In this document: piece after piece, positions 12,564 to 18,132 of the stretch
Numbering within the stretch: the first letter of the stretch is position 1
Layout: each line of letters starts with the position of its first letter
DNA from: a virus
Reading direction: 5' to 3' (one strand)
Length of the DNA: 35,735 nt
IMG/VR virus record: IMGVR_UViG_3300008217_000024
Coordinates: 1 to 35,735 of that record
Notes under the pieces: model-generated
What the model saw: only the letters and a program-made list of their open reading frames with translations
What the model was told of the DNA's origin: nothing
Database searches by the model: none
Program-made: the position numbers and the translations under genes

Positions 12564-12708
12564 GGGTAGAATTTACATCATCCATTCTTCCAGTTCCATC
12601 ACAATATTCGCACTTCTCGACAACCCAGCGTTCATGCATCATTCCATAAGCCACATAAGAATTATCATATTCCAAGAATCCATCACCATGACATTTGTGA
12701 CATATCAT
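12517..12708 (-). CDS. Small DnaJ-type zinc-finger protein, 63 aa
   Basis: Contains two CxxCxGxG-like motifs, CHKCHGDGF (residues 3-11) and CEYCDGTG (33-40), which together form one zinc site of the DnaJ cysteine-rich type. The rest is hydrophilic. The ATG has GGAG upstream and overlaps the recombinase stop as ATGA, a sign of coupled translation. Its end overlaps the next gene. Such tiny zinc-binding proteins are common in phage early regions; the partner is unknown. Confidence 0.65.
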   Translation of the reverse strand: MICHKCHGDGFLEYDNSYVAYGMMHERWVVEKCEYCDGTGRMDDVNSTHAKSRESEKTSERRD

Positions 12709-13268
12709 AATATAATCTCCTTCTGAGTTTTATCTTTTTGAGATTGTGTTATGCCAATGTATCTCATAGTGAATCTCGGTGACTGATGATTCAACAGTTC
12801 CATTACATGATGAATATCCTTTGTCTGTTGGTAAACATGGTATGCTCTGGTCTTTCTCATCGTATGAGTTCCAACGCTTTCCAGACCACACTTTTTACCA
12901 GCCTCTTTAAGAATCTTCCAAGCAACAGTCCTGTCAATGTGCCTTGTGGGATTGATGTATGAAAAGAATAACCAATCGTCATATCTCAAATTCCATTTAC
13001 TGATGTAATCCTTTAAGAGGGTCAACATCTCTTTATGAAGTTTGATTTTATTTAACTTTCCGGTCTTCTCTTCTCGGATGCAAAGGTGTTCTCTAGGCTT
13101 CATTGTGTGAGTATATATATTACTAACCTTCAATTTCAGTAGGTCAGATACTCTCAGTATTGTATTTATTCCCAGCTTAAACAACAATGCATTCCGGTCT
13201 GAATCACTCAACAGATACTCGTATAGCTGTTTCACTTTCTTTTTGTCTCGTATGGGTTCAACTGTCAT
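12705..13268 (-). CDS. Compact tyrosine recombinase (integrase catalytic domain only)
   Basis: Tyrosine recombinase catalytic domain with all key residues visible: Arg39 (ILRVSDLL), Lys68 (EEKTGK), His135-x-x-Arg138 (HTMRKT), His161 (LLNHQS) and the nucleophile Tyr170 (RYIGI). At 187 residues it lacks the N-terminal core-binding and arm-binding domains of normal phage integrases. It could resolve genome dimers, invert a segment, or integrate at a host dif/XerCD-like site. No att core is recognisable beside it. The ATG is preceded by AGGAGAGAG and overlaps the upstream gene by 11 bases. The excisionase-like protein at 18368-18664 could be its partner, though they are in opposite operons. Confidence 0.85.
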   Translation of the reverse strand: MTVEPIRDKKKVKQLYEYLLSDSDRNALLFKLGINTILRVSDLLKLKVSNIYTHTMKPREHLCIREEKTGKLNKIKLHKEMLTLLKDYISKWNLRYDDWLFFSYINPTRHIDRTVAWKILKEAGKKCGLESVGTHTMRKTRAYHVYQQTKDIHHVMELLNHQSPRFTMRYIGITQSQKDKTQKEIIL

Positions 13269-13554
13269 TTTCTCTCTCCTCTATTAGATGTTCAGCAATC
13301 TCGAAGAAATTAACCTCTCTGATTGCCATGTTACATACATCGTGGAAGAAACCCGGCTCTCTTTCGTCTGTTTGAATCTCCTTCCAATCATCTGCTACAT
13401 GGGATTCTAACCATCTTGAAAGTTCATAGGTCTTACACTCGTTATCAACATTTTTAAGGGTTGGCAACCAATTGGCATGGAGGTCATTATCCAACCACAA
13501 CTTGAAGTTCCAAGTTTCCCAATTCGTCCAGCCATTGTATTTAGTGTCTTTCAT
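13258..13554 (-). CDS. DUF7249-like phage protein (YNGWTNWETW motif), 98 aa
   Basis: The N-terminus YNGWTNWETWNFKLWLDND is the signature of a small phage/plasmid protein family (NGWTNYETWN..LW). The family's function is not known to me. The C-terminal half is acidic and helical. The gene has ACAGGAG before its ATG and is headed by tRNA-mimic element A. It overlaps the recombinase gene downstream. Confidence 0.7.
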   Translation of the reverse strand: MKDTKYNGWTNWETWNFKLWLDNDLHANWLPTLKNVDNECKTYELSRWLESHVADDWKEIQTDEREPGFFHDVCNMAIREVNFFEIAEHLIEERENDS

Positions 13555-13578: not shown

Positions 13579-13628
13579 TAAGGCAATGTGCCTTAGTCCC
13601 CCAGCCGGGAATCGAACCCAGCTGAGGG
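13579..13628 (-). promoter_or_regulatory. tRNA-mimic element A (minihelix, ACTA, 17-nt hairpin)
   Basis: On the minus strand CCCTCAGCTGGG and CCCGGCTGGGGG pair over 12 bp (two G-T) around the T-loop TTCGATT (13598-13628). ACTA follows, then the 17-nt hairpin TAAGGCA cat TGCCTTA (13579-13595), which begins with the TA of ACTA. The module is 50 nt long and is followed by ACAGGAG and the DUF7249-like gene. Confidence 0.8.
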
Positions 13629-13633
13629 TGTTT

Positions 13634-13648
13634 TTATGGTGGTGGCAT
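13634..13648 (-). CDS. Four-codon micro-ORF (M-P-P-P) with strong RBS
   Basis: ATG CCA CCA CCA TAA is preceded by ACAGGAGGT four bases upstream, one of the best ribosome binding sites in the window. It lies just after the stop of the histone-fold-like gene and directly before tRNA-mimic element A. Three proline codons in a row tend to stall ribosomes that lack EF-P, so a regulatory stall peptide is conceivable. It may be chance or a relic of a gene. Confidence 0.3.
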   Translation of the reverse strand: MPPP

Positions 13649-13667
13649 TTTTACCTCCTGTGTTAGA

Positions 13668-13976
13668 CTATTCTTTTCTTAGTTTGTTTAATAGAATAGT
13701 CGCTTCTTCGTGACACCATTTCTGTGTTGACATTGCAAACCGAAGAAACTCCGGTTTTAGATTACAACACTTCTGACATTTATTCTCACCATTGGATTCG
13801 CCTTTCGCATTGGTGTGCTGGGTCATCATGGTCTTCATCCCATCCTCGGTGACATTGCCACATAGGGATATAATAAGACTCTCAACAGCCCGGTTAATAC
13901 CATCCAACGCATCAGGACTCATCCTCAATCCTTGAGAATTGATTAACTTCTTCACTTTACTTTTCTGAATCAGCAT
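13668..13976 (-). CDS. Histone-fold-like small protein, 102 aa
   Basis: Residues 1-52 (QKSKVKKLINSQGLRMSPDAL, then NRAVESLI and DGMKTMM) match the pattern of bacterial single-domain histone-fold proteins of the Bd0055/NF-Y type, SKVK-x-x-I-x5-x-DxxxAL-N-x2-V-x2-LI followed by NGRKT. The NGRKT equivalent is degenerate here (EDGMKT). A Cys-rich C-terminal extension (KCQKCC and a later Cys/His pair) may bind zinc. It would bind DNA or act as a transcription factor; this rests on pattern resemblance only. It overlaps the upstream zinc protein gene by seven bases. Confidence 0.5.
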   Translation of the reverse strand: MLIQKSKVKKLINSQGLRMSPDALDGINRAVESLIISLCGNVTEDGMKTMMTQHTNAKGESNGENKCQKCCNLKPEFLRFAMSTQKWCHEEATILLNKLRKE

Positions 13977-14287
13977 TCTGCACCTCGTATTTCTTCAAGA
14001 CAGTAGTCACAGTATTCGTCACCATCTTCTTCGGTTAAGAGGTCTTCCTCATTACAGCCATCACAGAGGTGTGCTATCCTTTCTGAGGAAACCAGTTCCT
14101 CTGTCCGAATGTATTCTTCAGCATAAGTTAAGAGACATTCTTTGTCACTACATACCAATACACCACTGTAAGCACTTGCAAAAATCCCGGTTTCAGTACC
14201 ATTCTTTTTACAATAGGTGCATTCTGGAACTTCACCATCATCGTAGAGGTAACCTCCACCTTTCCATATATAGATTGTCTTTTTCAT
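13970..14287 (-). CDS. Cys-rich putative zinc-binding protein, 105 aa
   Basis: Contains CTYCKKNG (about residues 23-30), CSDKEC (46-51), CDGC and CDYC pairs in the last third, which fit two zinc-ribbon-like sites, and an acidic tail. No enzyme signature is seen. CGCAGGAG precedes the ATG and tRNA-mimic element B heads the gene. It overlaps the next gene. It is probably a protein- or nucleic-acid-binding accessory factor. Confidence 0.65.
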   Translation of the reverse strand: MKKTIYIWKGGGYLYDDGEVPECTYCKKNGTETGIFASAYSGVLVCSDKECLLTYAEEYIRTEELVSSERIAHLCDGCNEEDLLTEEDGDEYCDYCLEEIRGAEC

Positions 14288-14313
14288 TTGTTCTCCTGCG
14301 TTATTTATGAAAT

Positions 14314-14363
14314 TACAGCATCGTGCTGTAGCCCTTGGAGATGGAATCGAACCATCCCCAAGG
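14314..14363 (-). promoter_or_regulatory. tRNA-mimic element B (minihelix, GCTA, 17-nt hairpin)
   Basis: Minus-strand CCTTGGGGATGG pairs with CCATCTCCAAGG over 12 bp (one G-T) around TTCGATT (14333-14363). GCTA follows, then the hairpin TACAGCA cga TGCTGTA (14314-14330). The module is 50 nt long. ATTTCATAA and GCAGGAG lead into the Cys-rich gene. Confidence 0.8.
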
Positions 14364-14376
14364 TGATGGATATATA

Positions 14377-14820
14377 TTATATAATATTATCCACCCTGCC
14401 TTCTTTCATCTTGGCAACATACTCATCAGCGACCCTTGCCATGTCGAATAACTGCTTCTTCACCTCATCCCGGGCTTTGCTTTTAGTAAAAGACTTCTTC
14501 GCATGGGATTCAATCACAATCATCATGTACTCTGAAGCAGTCTTCCAGCTAAAATCAAACTCAACTGTAAAGGACTTTTTGTTTAAACTATCCACCAACT
14601 GTTTCCACATTGCTAATGAATTGTCATCCATGTTAATGAAGAATGTTCCTCGCTCTGCTCTCCAATGCCACTCTTTTCTGTAACTCTTGTCAGTATTCGG
14701 AAAGGTCAGGTCAACCCAAGCATTAATATTCTGTTCATTAACCAAATCACTTTTGAACAACTCTTGGGTAAAAGTTGGATTGTTTTTATACCAATCATTA
14801 CTCGGTTGCATTTGTTTCAT
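14377..14820 (-). CDS. Hypothetical protein, 147 aa
   Basis: Unrecognised soluble protein, rich in Trp and Lys, with an aromatic N-terminal half (WVDLTFP, EWHWRAERGTFF, VEFDFSW) that looks like beta structure and a helical C-terminal third. CACAGGAG lies close to the ATG. It stands alone between tRNA-mimic elements C (upstream) and B (downstream), so its transcript would be bounded by two such structures. Confidence 0.65.
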   Translation of the reverse strand: MKQMQPSNDWYKNNPTFTQELFKSDLVNEQNINAWVDLTFPNTDKSYRKEWHWRAERGTFFINMDDNSLAMWKQLVDSLNKKSFTVEFDFSWKTASEYMMIVIESHAKKSFTKSKARDEVKKQLFDMARVADEYVAKMKEGRVDNII

Positions 14821-14850
14821 TGTTTCTCCTGTGTATTATTATTTATGAAT

Positions 14851-14900
14851 TACCTCGCCATGAGGTAGTCATCCCGGGAGGAATCGAACCTCCCGAAATG
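14851..14900 (-). promoter_or_regulatory. tRNA-mimic element C (minihelix, ACTA, 17-nt hairpin)
   Basis: Minus-strand CATTTCGGGAGG pairs with CCTCCCGGGATG over 12 bp (two T-G; a 13th pair is possible) around TTCGATT (14870-14900). ACTA follows, then hairpin TACCTC atggc GAGGTA (14851-14867). The module is 50 nt long. ATTCATAA and CACAGGAG precede the next ATG. Confidence 0.8.
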
Positions 14901-14919
14901 ATGAGTATATTAATATATA

Positions 14920-15078
14920 CTATTCCGGCTTTTCTACTACCCGGTAATCTGTGGTTGCTAACCAACGATTATGTAAATCTAAGCCATATTCATTGGCTTC
15001 TTCCCGGGTATCAAACACCAGTGCATTACCATACCACTTGTCATCACCAGCCACTTTAACTTCAACGATGTATTTCAT
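14920..15078 (-). CDS. Small phage protein, 52 aa (WxGNALxFDTxEEA type)
   Basis: Short protein with the segment KWYGNALVFDTREEANEYGLD followed by RWLATTDYRVVE, a pattern seen in a widespread family of tiny phage proteins of unknown role. The strand-helix-strand layout suggests a compact alpha/beta fold. The ATG overlaps the peptide deformylase stop as ATGA, so it is likely to be translated by coupling with the deformylase. It is followed by tRNA-mimic element C. Confidence 0.75.
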   Translation of the reverse strand: MKYIVEVKVAGDDKWYGNALVFDTREEANEYGLDLHNRWLATTDYRVVEKPE

Positions 15079-15521
15079 GCTGTCACCTTCTCACCAGCAT
15101 CACTGATTAAGATTCCATCCAAGTGGTCAATCTCATGTTGGCAAACCCGAGCATCAAAACCACTGAGTTTAACCGGGGATTGATTCTGAGATATTAATTT
15201 ACCTTTCTTGAACCGGGTAACCATGAACTTTCCATTGACCGAAAGACATTCCTCTTCCTCAGTGGAACTGCCACCAATAACACTTGGCTTAAATACCGGG
15301 TTTATGAAGACTTCAACCTTACCATCCAACTTCATTGCAAACGCTCTCTGTGGCTTAATTAGACTGCTATTAACCATGGTCTGAACATGAGCTAAACCAT
15401 GAGCCTTGTTACTGAGGGTCTTCATGGCTAATTTCAACACATTCGTTACCCAACCAAAATTGGCAACATTTACCAGTTCTGAAACACTGTGAAGTATGTT
15501 CGTATTCTTATTTATTAACAT
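15075..15521 (-). CDS. def: Peptide deformylase
   Basis: Metal-dependent deformylase that removes the formyl group from new polypeptides. All three motifs are present: HGLAHVQ (residues 41-47, for GxGxAAxQ), EECLS (90-94, for EGCLS) with the metal-binding Cys92, and QHEIDHLDG (128-136) with the two metal-binding histidines and catalytic Glu. At 148 residues it is slightly short, as in other phage deformylases, which tend to lack the C-terminal extension. AHGLAHVQ departs from the usual G-x-G-x-A-A. ACAGGAG precedes the ATG. Element D heads it. Phage deformylases are proposed to keep host protein maturation going during infection. Confidence 0.9.
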   Translation of the reverse strand: MLINKNTNILHSVSELVNVANFGWVTNVLKLAMKTLSNKAHGLAHVQTMVNSSLIKPQRAFAMKLDGKVEVFINPVFKPSVIGGSSTEEEECLSVNGKFMVTRFKKGKLISQNQSPVKLSGFDARVCQHEIDHLDGILISDAGEKVTA

Positions 15522-15550
15522 ATTATTTCTCCTGTATGTTGTTATGAAAT

Positions 15551-15600
15551 TATCTCGTCTTGAGATAGTGCCTTACCTCAGAATCGAACTGAGATAAGGC
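15551..15600 (-). promoter_or_regulatory. tRNA-mimic element D (minihelix, ACTA, 17-nt hairpin)
   Basis: Minus-strand GCCTTATCTCAG pairs with CTGAGGTAAGGC over 12 bp (one T-G) around TTCGATT (15570-15600). ACTA follows, then hairpin TATCTC aagac GAGATA (15551-15567). The module is 50 nt long. ATTTCATAACAAC and ACAGGAG lead to the deformylase gene. Confidence 0.8.
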
Positions 15601-15606
15601 TTATTG

Positions 15607-15897
15607 CTACTTGATTGCGAGATTAACTGCAACCTCTGTATGGATAGGTACATATTCATCAACAAAGAATTCAGTACCACTACCAAGTCGTTCAGTTAGA
15701 GAATCATATCTGTAACAACCACCATAATAATCAGCGTTAAGATAGGCTCTAGTGTTTCTGTTTTTGTAGAGGTAAATATCTGTACCAAAGTTATCTACAG
15801 TTCCCATGTACATCCATTCACCCAAGTCAATCTTATTTTGATAGATTCTCGCTAATATCTCTAAGGGTTTCCAATCAACTTTGTATGTTATTTTCAC
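15607..15897 (-). CDS. Hypothetical protein, 96 aa
   Basis: Unrecognised protein, Tyr-rich (about a dozen Tyr) and likely mostly beta, with a repeating pattern of short strands (WMYMGTVDNFGTDIYLYKN). No Cys pairs and no membrane segment. The start is GTG at 15895-15897 behind CACAGGAG. It lies between tRNA-mimic elements E (upstream) and D (downstream). Confidence 0.65.
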   Translation of the reverse strand: MKITYKVDWKPLEILARIYQNKIDLGEWMYMGTVDNFGTDIYLYKNRNTRAYLNADYYGGCYRYDSLTERLGSGTEFFVDEYVPIHTEVAVNLAIK

Positions 15898-15927
15898 TTT
15901 TTTTCTCCTGTGTTTGTTGTTATGAAA

Positions 15928-15962
15928 TAGTCAACAAGGCTGGAATCGAACCAGCCCTGTTG
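15928..15962 (-). promoter_or_regulatory. tRNA-mimic element E (minihelix and ACTA, no second hairpin)
   Basis: Minus-strand CAACAGGGCTGG pairs with CCAGCCTTGTTG over 12 bp (one G-T) around TTCGATT (15932-15962), followed by ACTA. The 17-nt second hairpin is absent; ACTA runs straight into TTTCATAACAAC and CACAGGAG. This shows that the minihelix-ACTA part is the constant core. Confidence 0.8.
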
Positions 15963-15985
15963 AGTCACGCATCCCCATGAAGAAA

Positions 15986-16924
15986 TTAATCTTCGTATGT
16001 TACACCCATGATATGGTCAACACCCTTCTGAGCCTTGCTACAGGCTTCCATGAACCAATCCGGGTTGTCCTTCAACTTCCGGCTCCAGCTATTGATATAA
16101 CTAGCTGAATTCTCGAGAGTCTCGCCTTCAATACCAGCTATTCCCGAAAGGATGGATGCTATTGTCTCAGCAACCAACTCTTCTTTAGAATATTCATGCG
16201 AACCATGAAAGTTCAATCCGGTAATACCATCACGCTCTAATCTGCTTTTGTGACCGGTACTGTGACCGGCTTCATGGAACAGTGTGCAATAGTAGTTTGC
16301 TGGACTATGGAAAGAGAGTTTAGGTGTGAGGTGAATCTCATCCTTTGCTGGAATGTAGAAATTACTTTCGAGCTGGTCATGTTTTAAGACAGGTCTGCCT
16401 TTATAACCATCCCAAATTTTCTCACACTCTTGAATGGGGTCAAATGTAGCTGGTTTCTTGGTCGGTTTCGGATAGAACTTAGCCTTGACTTCCGGCTTCA
16501 ATCCCTTAACCTCATCTGCATTAAATACCCAATACAGTTTACACCAAGGTTTTATCTTCCAAGAAATGTAACCAAAATTATTACATTGGTCACAACCTTT
16601 ACCAGCACATGATTTACACTTGGCTCTCTTCTTGAAGTTCCAGAATGTTACCGGAATTCCAACAGACTTAATATCCTCAACCCAACCACCTAATTTCTTG
16701 ACCTGATTAAGGGTCAGCCAAAAAGGTGAGGTATAACCTCTATCAGTGGCTATAAAGTCAGTAATAAGAGAATTGTAACCTCGGTATGCCTTACCTGTAA
16801 ATCCACAATGACGACCTCTTAGTGGGTTCCAAGGCATCTTCCAAGGGATAACACCCTTGTCCAATAGTTCAGTGATTTTATTGGTAATTGTCTTGCCAAT
16901 AAATTGAATTTGCTTTTTACTCAT
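15986..16924 (-). CDS. ArdC-like antirestriction protein with zincin domain
   Basis: ArdC-type protein: an N-terminal ssDNA-binding domain (IPWKMPWNPLRGRHCGFTGKAYRGYNSL, about residues 25-55 and on) and a C-terminal zinc metallopeptidase domain with HEAGHSTGH (about 217-225) followed by EELVAETIAS carrying the likely third ligand. A four-Cys insert, CKSCAGKGCDQC, lies near residues 103-114 and probably binds a second zinc. Such proteins protect incoming DNA from restriction. A longer reading frame begins at 16945, but AACAGGAG lies inside that extension and is well spaced from the ATG at 16924, so I chose the latter (312 aa). Element F heads the gene. Confidence 0.88.
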   Translation of the reverse strand: MSKKQIQFIGKTITNKITELLDKGVIPWKMPWNPLRGRHCGFTGKAYRGYNSLITDFIATDRGYTSPFWLTLNQVKKLGGWVEDIKSVGIPVTFWNFKKRAKCKSCAGKGCDQCNNFGYISWKIKPWCKLYWVFNADEVKGLKPEVKAKFYPKPTKKPATFDPIQECEKIWDGYKGRPVLKHDQLESNFYIPAKDEIHLTPKLSFHSPANYYCTLFHEAGHSTGHKSRLERDGITGLNFHGSHEYSKEELVAETIASILSGIAGIEGETLENSASYINSWSRKLKDNPDWFMEACSKAQKGVDHIMGVTYED

Positions 16925-16953
16925 GTGATTACTCCTGTTAGTCATTTATGAAA

Positions 16954-17003
16954 TACTGCATCATGCAGTAGTCAACAGCCCCGGAATCGAACCGGAACTG
17001 TTG
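16954..17003 (-). promoter_or_regulatory. tRNA-mimic element F (minihelix, ACTA, 17-nt hairpin)
   Basis: Minus-strand CAACAGTTCCGG pairs with CCGGGGCTGTTG over 12 bp (two T-G) around TTCGATT (16973-17003). ACTA follows, then hairpin TACTGCA tga TGCAGTA (16954-16970). The module is 50 nt long. TTTCATAA and AACAGGAG lead into the ArdC-like gene. Confidence 0.8.
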
Positions 17004-17018
17004 ATGTGGAATGAGGAT

Positions 17019-17255
17019 TTAATCATCATCTTCAAGAAGATAATTTTCTCCATATTCAAGGGTTATCCCATATGCATTTAGAATATCTTCCAAAGATGAC
17101 GAGTGGTAGTCTGACATAGTTATTTCGTCTAATTGAAAGTCCTCTTCAGTACCATATTTCCCAATGTACTTTTGGCTTACTGAAATGACTATTTTAGATG
17201 CCTTAACTTCTGTCGGTAGAACAATTCCATTGTAGTCTTTTGTTTTTTCTTTCAT
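17019..17255 (-). CDS. Hypothetical acidic protein, 78 aa
   Basis: First gene of the minus-strand operon. It is a small, acidic, soluble protein with predicted beta strands in the first half and a helix plus acidic tail (ending LLEDDD) in the second. The family is not recognised. TAGGAG lies upstream of the ATG, and the cloverleaf-like element G occupies the leader just before it. As the promoter-proximal gene it may be expressed very early; small acidic early proteins are often inhibitors of host enzymes, but nothing in the sequence shows a target. Confidence 0.65.
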   Translation of the reverse strand: MKEKTKDYNGIVLPTEVKASKIVISVSQKYIGKYGTEEDFQLDEITMSDYHSSSLEDILNAYGITLEYGENYLLEDDD

Positions 17256-17280
17256 GTTGTTATTACTCCTAGTTAATGAG

Positions 17281-17343
17281 AGGTCAGCAAGGGAATCGAA
17301 CCCTCAGAAACACCAGTTTCTTGGCAACTACCAGCCCTGACCT
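17281..17343 (-). ncRNA. Element G: shrunken cloverleaf tRNA-like structure
   Basis: Minus strand, about 61-63 nt. The acceptor-like ends AGGTCAG and CTGACCT pair. A small D-like arm has GGC/GCC closing a TGGTAGTT loop. An anticodon-like arm has AGAAAC/GTTTCT with a TGGT loop (too short for a real anticodon loop). There is no variable loop. The T-arm is GAGGG TTCGATT CCCTT. There is one G-G mismatch at the base of the acceptor. No CCA follows; the leader TTAACTAGGAG comes next. It is therefore not a working tRNA by these rules, but it looks like an intermediate between a tRNA and the minihelix elements downstream. Confidence 0.65.
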
Positions 17344-17345
17344 TT

Positions 17346-18132
17346 GTTATTCATAAACAACAGGTATCGTCCACTAACTACCATTCCCGGTCAATTTGAG
17401 TCAGCTCCAATCGTCATGTTTTGTCGTCATGGTGGTGAGTATACATTTGTGCATCTCACTGCGTAATTTAACCTACTGTAATCATCATTTGTATGAGTGC
17501 TGTAGCAACAGAGAGTGGTCTATCAAACCACTATACCATTGGTCAGTTAGTTTCTTATAATTCCGGGGCACTTACTCCGACATCTCTATCGGTATCTTCT
17601 TCCCGGTTTCTCTCGTGTCTGTCGCCTTTCGCCCTTGAGACAGATTATTTCAGGTCACGAGTGAATCCAAATTGTGAATGAACTGCTTTAATAAGCACCC
17701 CTAAGTTACATACATGACAGGTTGAATCCAACAATTATATTATTAGTATCATAAAGTTGCACTCTGAGGGAGAATGCTGTCGTCAGTAATATGAGGGTAG
17801 CTACCGAATTACCGAGGAGAAATGGGGAAAAGGGTGCTACGATTCAGGGTGGCTTCACACCGGGGGAGGTGGTGCTGGTGTGGATGTGGTACAATCCTCC
17901 TCGAAGTGAAACATTATACACATATTGTTGCACTCTCACTACTATGTATGTGTAGCAATACCAACAGATAGCACCATACACGATGATGGGCTGAGGCTGA
18001 TACATGGGTGCAGAACAAACATAGGTAGGGGGTGGCATCCCACCCACCCGAAGGGAGCCCCCCCATGCCTTGTATATATATACAGCTCTTACACAAAACA
18101 GGTGAAATATTCTGGTTGACATAAGTTACACA
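17346..18132. other. 787-base divergent control region
   Basis: Separates the leftward operon (first gene ends its start at 17255) from the rightward one (18133 on). No convincing protein gene. It contains a series of hairpins (17500-17661), an AT-rich stretch with TTGAAT and TAGTAT spaced 16 bases (17722-17749), the repeat TTGCACTCT at 17758 and 17929, G-rich sequence with a CACACC/GGTGTG hairpin (17856-17882), a wobble-rich stem at 17926-17960, a very GC-rich stretch (18027-18065), and a TTGACA box at 18116. It is expected to hold the divergent early promoters. A stretch TTATTCATAAACAAC on the plus strand at 17347 mirrors the leader sequence found behind the tRNA-mimic elements. Confidence 0.5.
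17500..17661 (+). ncRNA. Candidate structured RNA or structured DNA, serial hairpins
   Basis: Four consecutive stem-loops: CTGT agca ACAG (17500-17511); AGTGGT ctatcaa ACCACT (17514-17532); CCGGG/CCCGG enclosing CCGA/TCGG (17563-17606); and CTCGTGTCTGTC pairing with GACAGA plus CACGAG, interrupted by an 11-base bulge (17612-17661). The density of good stems in a gene-free stretch is notable. No T-tract follows, and the strand is undecided because stems form on both. It could be an RNA, a leader, or a DNA site. Confidence 0.35.

Follow-up and report, generated by a model that had tools for sequence, protein, structure and literature searches.

In mitochondrial transcripts, tRNAs or tRNA-like folds lying between genes (tRNA punctuation, or t-elements) mark the places where RNase P and RNase Z cut. 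Here we describe related elements in IMG/VR virus record IMGVR_UViG_3300008217_000024, the entire 35.7-kb contig of which is hereafter called the window (35,735 nt, encoding a terminase, a portal protein, RecE, RecT and a DnaC-like loader), where each gap of a leftward operon holds a stem-loop resembling the acceptor stem and T-arm of a tRNA. These mimics are like the mitochondrial elements in being tRNA-type folds between genes of a polycistronic RNA, but they belong to phage operons, form tandem arrays without an anticodon arm, are accompanied by a second hairpin and are interchangeable with hammerhead ribozymes, and we infer that they are cut.

Other described systems resemble them in part. 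Substrates of RNase P include the C4 antisense RNA of P1/P7, phage M3 RNA, T4 gene 32 mRNA and E. coli polycistronic mRNAs, which provide a precedent for tRNA-like folds in phage RNA or operon mRNA being cut by tRNA-maturation enzymes (reviewed in PMC11143913); these are single cases, whereas the elements described here are a single structured family met repeatedly between the genes of many phages. The theta ribozymes beside gut-phage tRNAs (PMC10879173) are also RNA elements of phages with a link to the 3' processing of tRNA, but they process real tRNAs, while our mimics stand between protein genes. A triple hammerhead array flanks the anti-restriction gene ardA of A. tumefaciens and cuts in vitro and in E. 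coli, its purpose being unknown (Perreault et al. 2011, PMC3088659); those hammerheads share slots, strand and gene type with the mimics, which have neither the core nor the fold of a hammerhead. Different ribozyme classes also share gene neighbourhoods (PMC10085705).

The start-associated sequences (SAS) and extended start-associated sequences (ESAS) of cluster K mycobacteriophages are likewise repeated inverted repeats, close to the translation starts of some non-structural genes and on their upstream side (Pope et al. 2011, PMC3203893). Unlike the mimics, ESAS have conserved arm sequences and are paired with a fixed 13-bp SAS (PMC3203893), and we rejected them as an identity for our elements, which lack the conserved 17-bp inverted repeat that adjoins the SAS GGGATAGGAGCCC. 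The broader of our two mimic models (R2, see below) gave no match on TM4, and the SAS is absent from Cuke, a mycobacteriophage that carries the mimics. In T4-type phages, promoter early stem-loops (PeSLs) are tied to module shuffling and carry an early promoter and a terminator-like loop. PeSL cassettes (for the term see PMC4503421) are, like the mimics, intergenic stem-loop units, but our elements have a tRNA fold and no U-tract.

No Rfam family was found at gathering threshold in the window and its relatives, and no description of the elements in the open-access literature, subscription papers lying outside the search. We treat the RNA family as undescribed and its proposed action as a variant of tRNA punctuation. 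Current annotation overlooks this new family or mislabels it as tRNA, and since cultured laboratory phages carry it, the proposal is directly testable. If true, tRNA punctuation, mainly organellar so far, would be a general phage strategy for cutting operon mRNA; it would also give a reason for the self-cleaving ribozymes between phage genes, a question open since 2011, and help to explain how small early genes shuffle as cassettes.

Elements of the leftward operon and their family

The existence of gap-filling elements in the leftward operon, claimed in a first-pass annotation of this DNA, is confirmed. The loop motif TTCGATT occurs 11 times in the window against 3.9 expected, and seven of these copies lie on the - strand within 13.6-17.3 kb, one per non-overlapping gap. 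The elements, A to G, are all in the sense strand and occupy every such gap between 13.55 and 17.35 kb:

Element A, 13579..13628, - strand: 12-bp stem with TTCGATT (13598-13628), A-C, then hairpin 2 TAAGGCACATTGCCTTA (13579-13595); upstream of the DUF7249 gene 13258-13554.
Element B, 14314..14363, - strand: 12-bp stem with TTCGATT (14333-14363), G-C, then hairpin 2 (14314-14330); upstream of gene 13970-14287.
Element C, 14851..14901, - strand: 12-13-bp stem with TTCGATT (14869-14901), then hairpin 2 (14851-14867); upstream of gene 14377-14820.
Element D, 15551..15600, - strand: 12-bp stem with TTCGATT (15570-15600), then hairpin 2 (15551-15567); upstream of the peptide deformylase gene 15075-15521.
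Element E, 15931..15963, - strand: 13-bp stem with TTCGATT, without hairpin 2; upstream of gene 15607-15897.
Element F, 16954..17004, - strand: 13-bp stem with TTCGATT (16972-17004), then hairpin 2 (16954-16970); upstream of the ArdC-like gene 15986-16945.
Element G, 17281..17343, - strand: at the operon head; larger tRNA-like fold with acceptor AGGTCAG/CTGACCT, D-like and anticodon-like arms, and a T-arm.

The annotation had the loop of A-F closing a 12-bp stem, and this was borne out: in the six regular copies, picked by the loop alone, all 72 flanking positions are paired (63 Watson-Crick, nine G·U, no A·C and no mismatches). The flanks of the four remaining TTCGATT sites in the window are unpaired. 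The presence of G-U without A-C implies selection on the sense RNA, and not on DNA or the opposite strand. Although pairing is kept in all regular copies, their stems do not differ completely, as had been stated, since those at 15950 and 16991 have a near-identical outer stem (TCAACAG). Nor are all seven elements alike: six are regular stems, while G is larger and gives a sub-threshold match to tRNA-Sec (25.5 bits against a threshold of 47). Immediately after the stem, five of the seven copies carry a second covarying hairpin (hairpin 2) of 6-7 bp, with the form TAnnnn, short loop, nnnnTA. The ACTA taken for a CCA-like end is instead a discriminator, a C and the start of hairpin 2, the first pair of which is formed by TA in these five copies. 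An ACAGGAG-like ribosome site was found in most copies, not before every gene as proposed.

A first DNA pattern search gave 75 matches, one of them a true relative, L002. This close relative keeps the operon framework, but shows no detectable counterpart of the window gene that lies between elements G and F, and the gene between E and D (15607-15897 in the window) is absent, the stem of E being fused directly to hairpin 2 of D. The integrase used as a query found no relatives, and the array had no match among sequenced phages at the DNA level. Terminase relatives were more informative, with homologous elements in 14 of the 50 records searched. There the element is a reduced tRNA, consisting of an acceptor, a linker with ATGGT and a T-arm, followed by hairpin 2, the anticodon arm being absent. 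An unfitted alignment of 14 relative copies is 94.3% paired, with compensatory change in 17 of 18 pairs, including hairpin 2, and scores 0.755 for covariation against at most 0.263 when slid. A model built solely from other phages (R1) matched five of the six regular window copies over their full length and the sixth (15950) via its T-arm.

A short pattern derived from the relatives was then searched in IMG/VR, where it occurs in at least 80 loci. Model-based scoring of the matches listed gave at least 152 matches in the 80 loci listed, the contigs being fragmentary and the model E-values coming from a short calibration, and at least 143 distinct copies were compared. Among the matches listed are two cultured phages, Mycobacterium phage Cuke and Streptomyces phage Endor1, and element arrays are present in Cuke, Endor1, Fowlmouth, Joe, Conan and Sitrop; the elements are a family widespread among phages and not a peculiarity of one. 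The broader model R2, with 45 diverse copies, has 189 double-change cells against 61 when shuffled. Merely two matches above 25 bits were found in 78 control loci, most of them picked for a tRNA-like T-arm, so ordinary tRNA genes do not account for the model matches. In IMG/VR copies picked by pattern alone, all four unspecified T-stem pairs are formed in 61 of 67 (about 2% expected), and G-U outnumbers A-C by 7 to 2; the corresponding count over fitted registers (40 to 25) is biased by register choice and was set aside in favour of the loop- and pattern-selected counts. The first-pass view that RNA structure is under selection, for which covariation across homologues and occurrence in related phages were to be decisive, is upheld by both, as well as by G-U without A-C and the constant sense orientation.

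The copies share the anatomy of a mini-tRNA: a stacked acceptor/T helix of 11-13 bp (142 of 143 copies), a linker of 0-18 nt (143 of 143) containing the GG of the D-loop contact (136 of 138 linkers), a T-loop of consensus TTCRANY, and a trailer that is mostly R-C-N, with C74 conserved after the discriminator and C75 avoided. Acceptor pairs vary freely, and CCA follows the acceptor in 3 of 143 copies. The six regular window copies have no GG linker, yet R1 places them in the family, whole or by the T-arm. Strand is constant in all 30 loci with at least two elements. Most classifiable copies lie between same-direction genes, a median of 5.5 nt past the upstream stop and with about 85 nt from element start to the next start codon, distances that are blurred by a simple open reading frame (ORF) caller; 48 of 129 copies share nucleotides with the stop codon of the gene upstream. 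Hairpin 2 is present in 32 of 34 marine mimics (1.8 expected), just ahead of the ribosome site in most marine copies.

Several other identities were considered and rejected. No copy is a working tRNA, as the first-pass annotation had recognised: ARAGORN and the Rfam tRNA family are negative, and the linker is too short for D and anticodon arms. A CCA-encoding tRNA is contradicted by the rarity of CCA. Aminoacylation or EF-Tu mimicry, akin to the translation-factor binding once suggested, fails on the free variation of the acceptor pairs and the absence of CCA. An intrinsic terminator does not fit R-C-N trailers, often followed by hairpin 2, and nearly all copies have no U-tract. In L267, a phage with such elements, a true tRNA gene is likewise without CCA and has the trailer A-C-G. 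The annotated tRNA-Arg of Sitrop (L317:2896-2978; MT701598 41493-41575) coincides with a mini-tRNA element (R2 match 2896-2938) and overlaps a gene, and is likely a false tRNA call.

Hammerhead ribozymes in the same slots

In the operons of sister phages, other gaps contain a complete hammerhead core with three stems around CUGANGA, GAA and NUH, while reversed controls gave none. All cells of the hammerhead alignment are paired and 12 of 15 pairs are doubly changed. A model built from them (R3) has 24 matches in 742 kb, including copies outside its building set, against one weak match in 708 kb of control phage DNA; the Rfam family RAGATH-1-hammerhead stays below its threshold on them (28.9 against 56.3 bits). 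Neither R3 nor a descriptor found a hammerhead in the window.

Hammerheads and mimics replace each other at orthologous genes. ArdC is accompanied by a hammerhead in L121 and L139 and by a mimic in L150, L239 and the window; a gene whose product is 72-80% identical between L132 and L110/L120 goes with a hammerhead in the first and with a mimic in the other two; and for DUF7249 the hammerhead is found in L145, the mimics in L123 and the window. Mixed slots also occur in other phages, L204, L250 and L251. The hammerheads overlap or adjoin the upstream stop, and hammerheads cut on their own 3' side. Hairpin 2 was not seen after the predicted hammerhead cut sites in the sister-phage gaps.

Complete hammerheads below Rfam thresholds were observed between early-operon genes in L108, L110, L118, L121, L127/L128, L132, L139, L143, L145, L147, L204, L250 and L251. 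A third conserved structure, with GGACTCCGCA in a branched fold, lies upstream of genes in mimic/hammerhead operons (L192:2582-2692, -; L194:8797-8911, +; L195:8810-8907, +; L111:3756, -), and is possibly another ribozyme or a regulatory RNA.

Probable punctuation of early mRNA and competing explanations

We consider it probable that the elements are minimal tRNA mimics acting as punctuation marks in polycistronic early mRNA, cut by host tRNA-maturation nucleases. The acceptor stem and T-arm would stack into one helix of 11-13 bp, and in most phages the short GG linker would replace the D-loop, allowing a tRNA elbow to form without an anticodon arm; by this fold the host nucleases would find each gap between genes and cut the message there. 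We infer both the cleavage itself and the identity of the enzyme. The punctuation reading of the first-pass annotation gains indirect support from the interchange with hammerheads, since occupation of the same slot suggests that both bring about a cut between genes. For the wider proposal, that this undescribed and widespread family of anticodon-arm-less mini-tRNAs makes early operons into separately processed, exchangeable cassettes through host tRNA-maturation nucleases, and that hammerheads do likewise protein-free in the same phages, we judge the case to be evenly balanced.

An RNase Z-like cut on the 3' side of the mimic would best fit the anatomy, and is favoured by the overlap with the upstream stop codon and the absence of CCA: where the stop overlaps, RNase P cutting at the 5' side would shorten the upstream frame, which a 3' cut would leave intact. 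RNase Z takes tRNAs lacking CCA as substrates, in keeping with the R-C-N trailers. RNase P might cut the 5' side of copies that are clear of the stop codon. After a 3' cut, the stop codon would stay with the upstream message, whose new end would be a stable hairpin of 12-13 bp; the downstream message would open with hairpin 2, or else with a short leader, directly ahead of its ribosome site. Phosphate-bearing 5' ends are open to RNase E-type decay, while hammerhead cleavage leaves a 5'-OH. The nuclease-made 5' phosphate end would be exposed to such decay, and hairpin 2 would presumably shield it, both hairpins having putative stabilising roles.

Some observations weigh against this punctuation model. 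The elbow mimicry of the regular window copies, having no GG linker, rests on the T-loop. The conserved C74, with C75 avoided, may be unfavourable for some RNase Z enzymes and could point to a contact with RNase P. Interchange with ribozymes establishes a shared slot and not a shared reaction, and the evidence on the host is weak, consisting of one terminase relative in a Marinimicrobia metagenome-assembled genome.

The mimics could instead remain uncut, as hairpins that bind protein or lend stability, shielding mRNA ends or keeping the translation of neighbouring genes apart, with the elbow bound by a tRNA-binding protein. Effects on translation or decay are plausible given hairpin 2 before the ribosome site and elements adjoining stop codons, but interchange with self-cleaving hammerheads at orthologous genes would be left unexplained, as would the keeping of an elbow recognised by maturation enzymes while the acceptor sequence is free; we regard this explanation as unlikely. 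It is also conceivable, though distinctly improbable, that the elements act as DNA-level boundaries of gene exchange, either serving a tyrosine recombinase in the manner of integron attC sites or offering phage recombinases short stretches of homology. The window genome encodes RecE and RecT, a 187-aa tyrosine integrase closes the array, and exchange is bounded by elements in three independent pairs: in L002 the replacement of one gene and the absence of another fall exactly at elements; between Endor1 and Conan two genes have traded positions, and the ends of the block are 0-26 nt away from elements, which make up 7.5% of the region; and in Cuke and Fowlmouth one gene is replaced between element edges. 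However, nine G-U and no A-C in the window stems show selection on sense RNA rather than on a bottom-strand DNA fold, the serine integrase of Endor1 makes a tyrosine recombinase unnecessary, and use as a boundary can arise from repeated sequence alone. The integron-like cassette or attC site, taken up after L002, was demoted on the G-U count and the serine integrase in the Endor1 region. The elements may promote gene exchange or merely tolerate it.

Neighbourhood logic earlier revealed the twister-sister, pistol and hatchet ribozymes, and the slots, strand and stop-codon overlap that the mimics have in common with hammerheads might suggest that the element and hairpin 2 together form a new self-cleaving class. 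This is very unlikely: all conserved non-stem bases are those expected of a tRNA (GG, TTCRANY and R73-C74), and the regular window copies have no linker and one has no hairpin 2, leaving no extra conserved core. Hardly credible at all is an origin as captured-tRNA relics, or a function as decoys against tRNA-attacking defences, even though element G looks like a shortened tRNA and one element of Sitrop coincides with an annotated tRNA-Arg. Relics would not covary in every stem, stand in tandem arrays between genes and keep to the sense orientation, and a decoy without an anticodon arm cannot bait anticodon nucleases.

Other features of the operon

The peptide deformylase gene of the window (15075-15521, - strand) sits within the element-separated array. 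About 400 nt of conserved non-coding DNA (17270-17690, - strand), upstream of and including element G, are 78% identical to L002 and show 11 compensatory pairs in a two-sequence fold; this may be a large leader RNA or a promoter region. Just before element A, a mini-ORF (13634-13648, - strand; ATG CCA CCA CCA TAA, Met-Pro-Pro-Pro) with a strong AGGAGG site ahead of it resembles a stalling leader peptide or a gene remnant. The short tyrosine integrase of 187 aa at the array end is encoded at 12705-13268 (- strand), and similar-looking ORFs are found in the equivalent operon of L191, L192 and L193.

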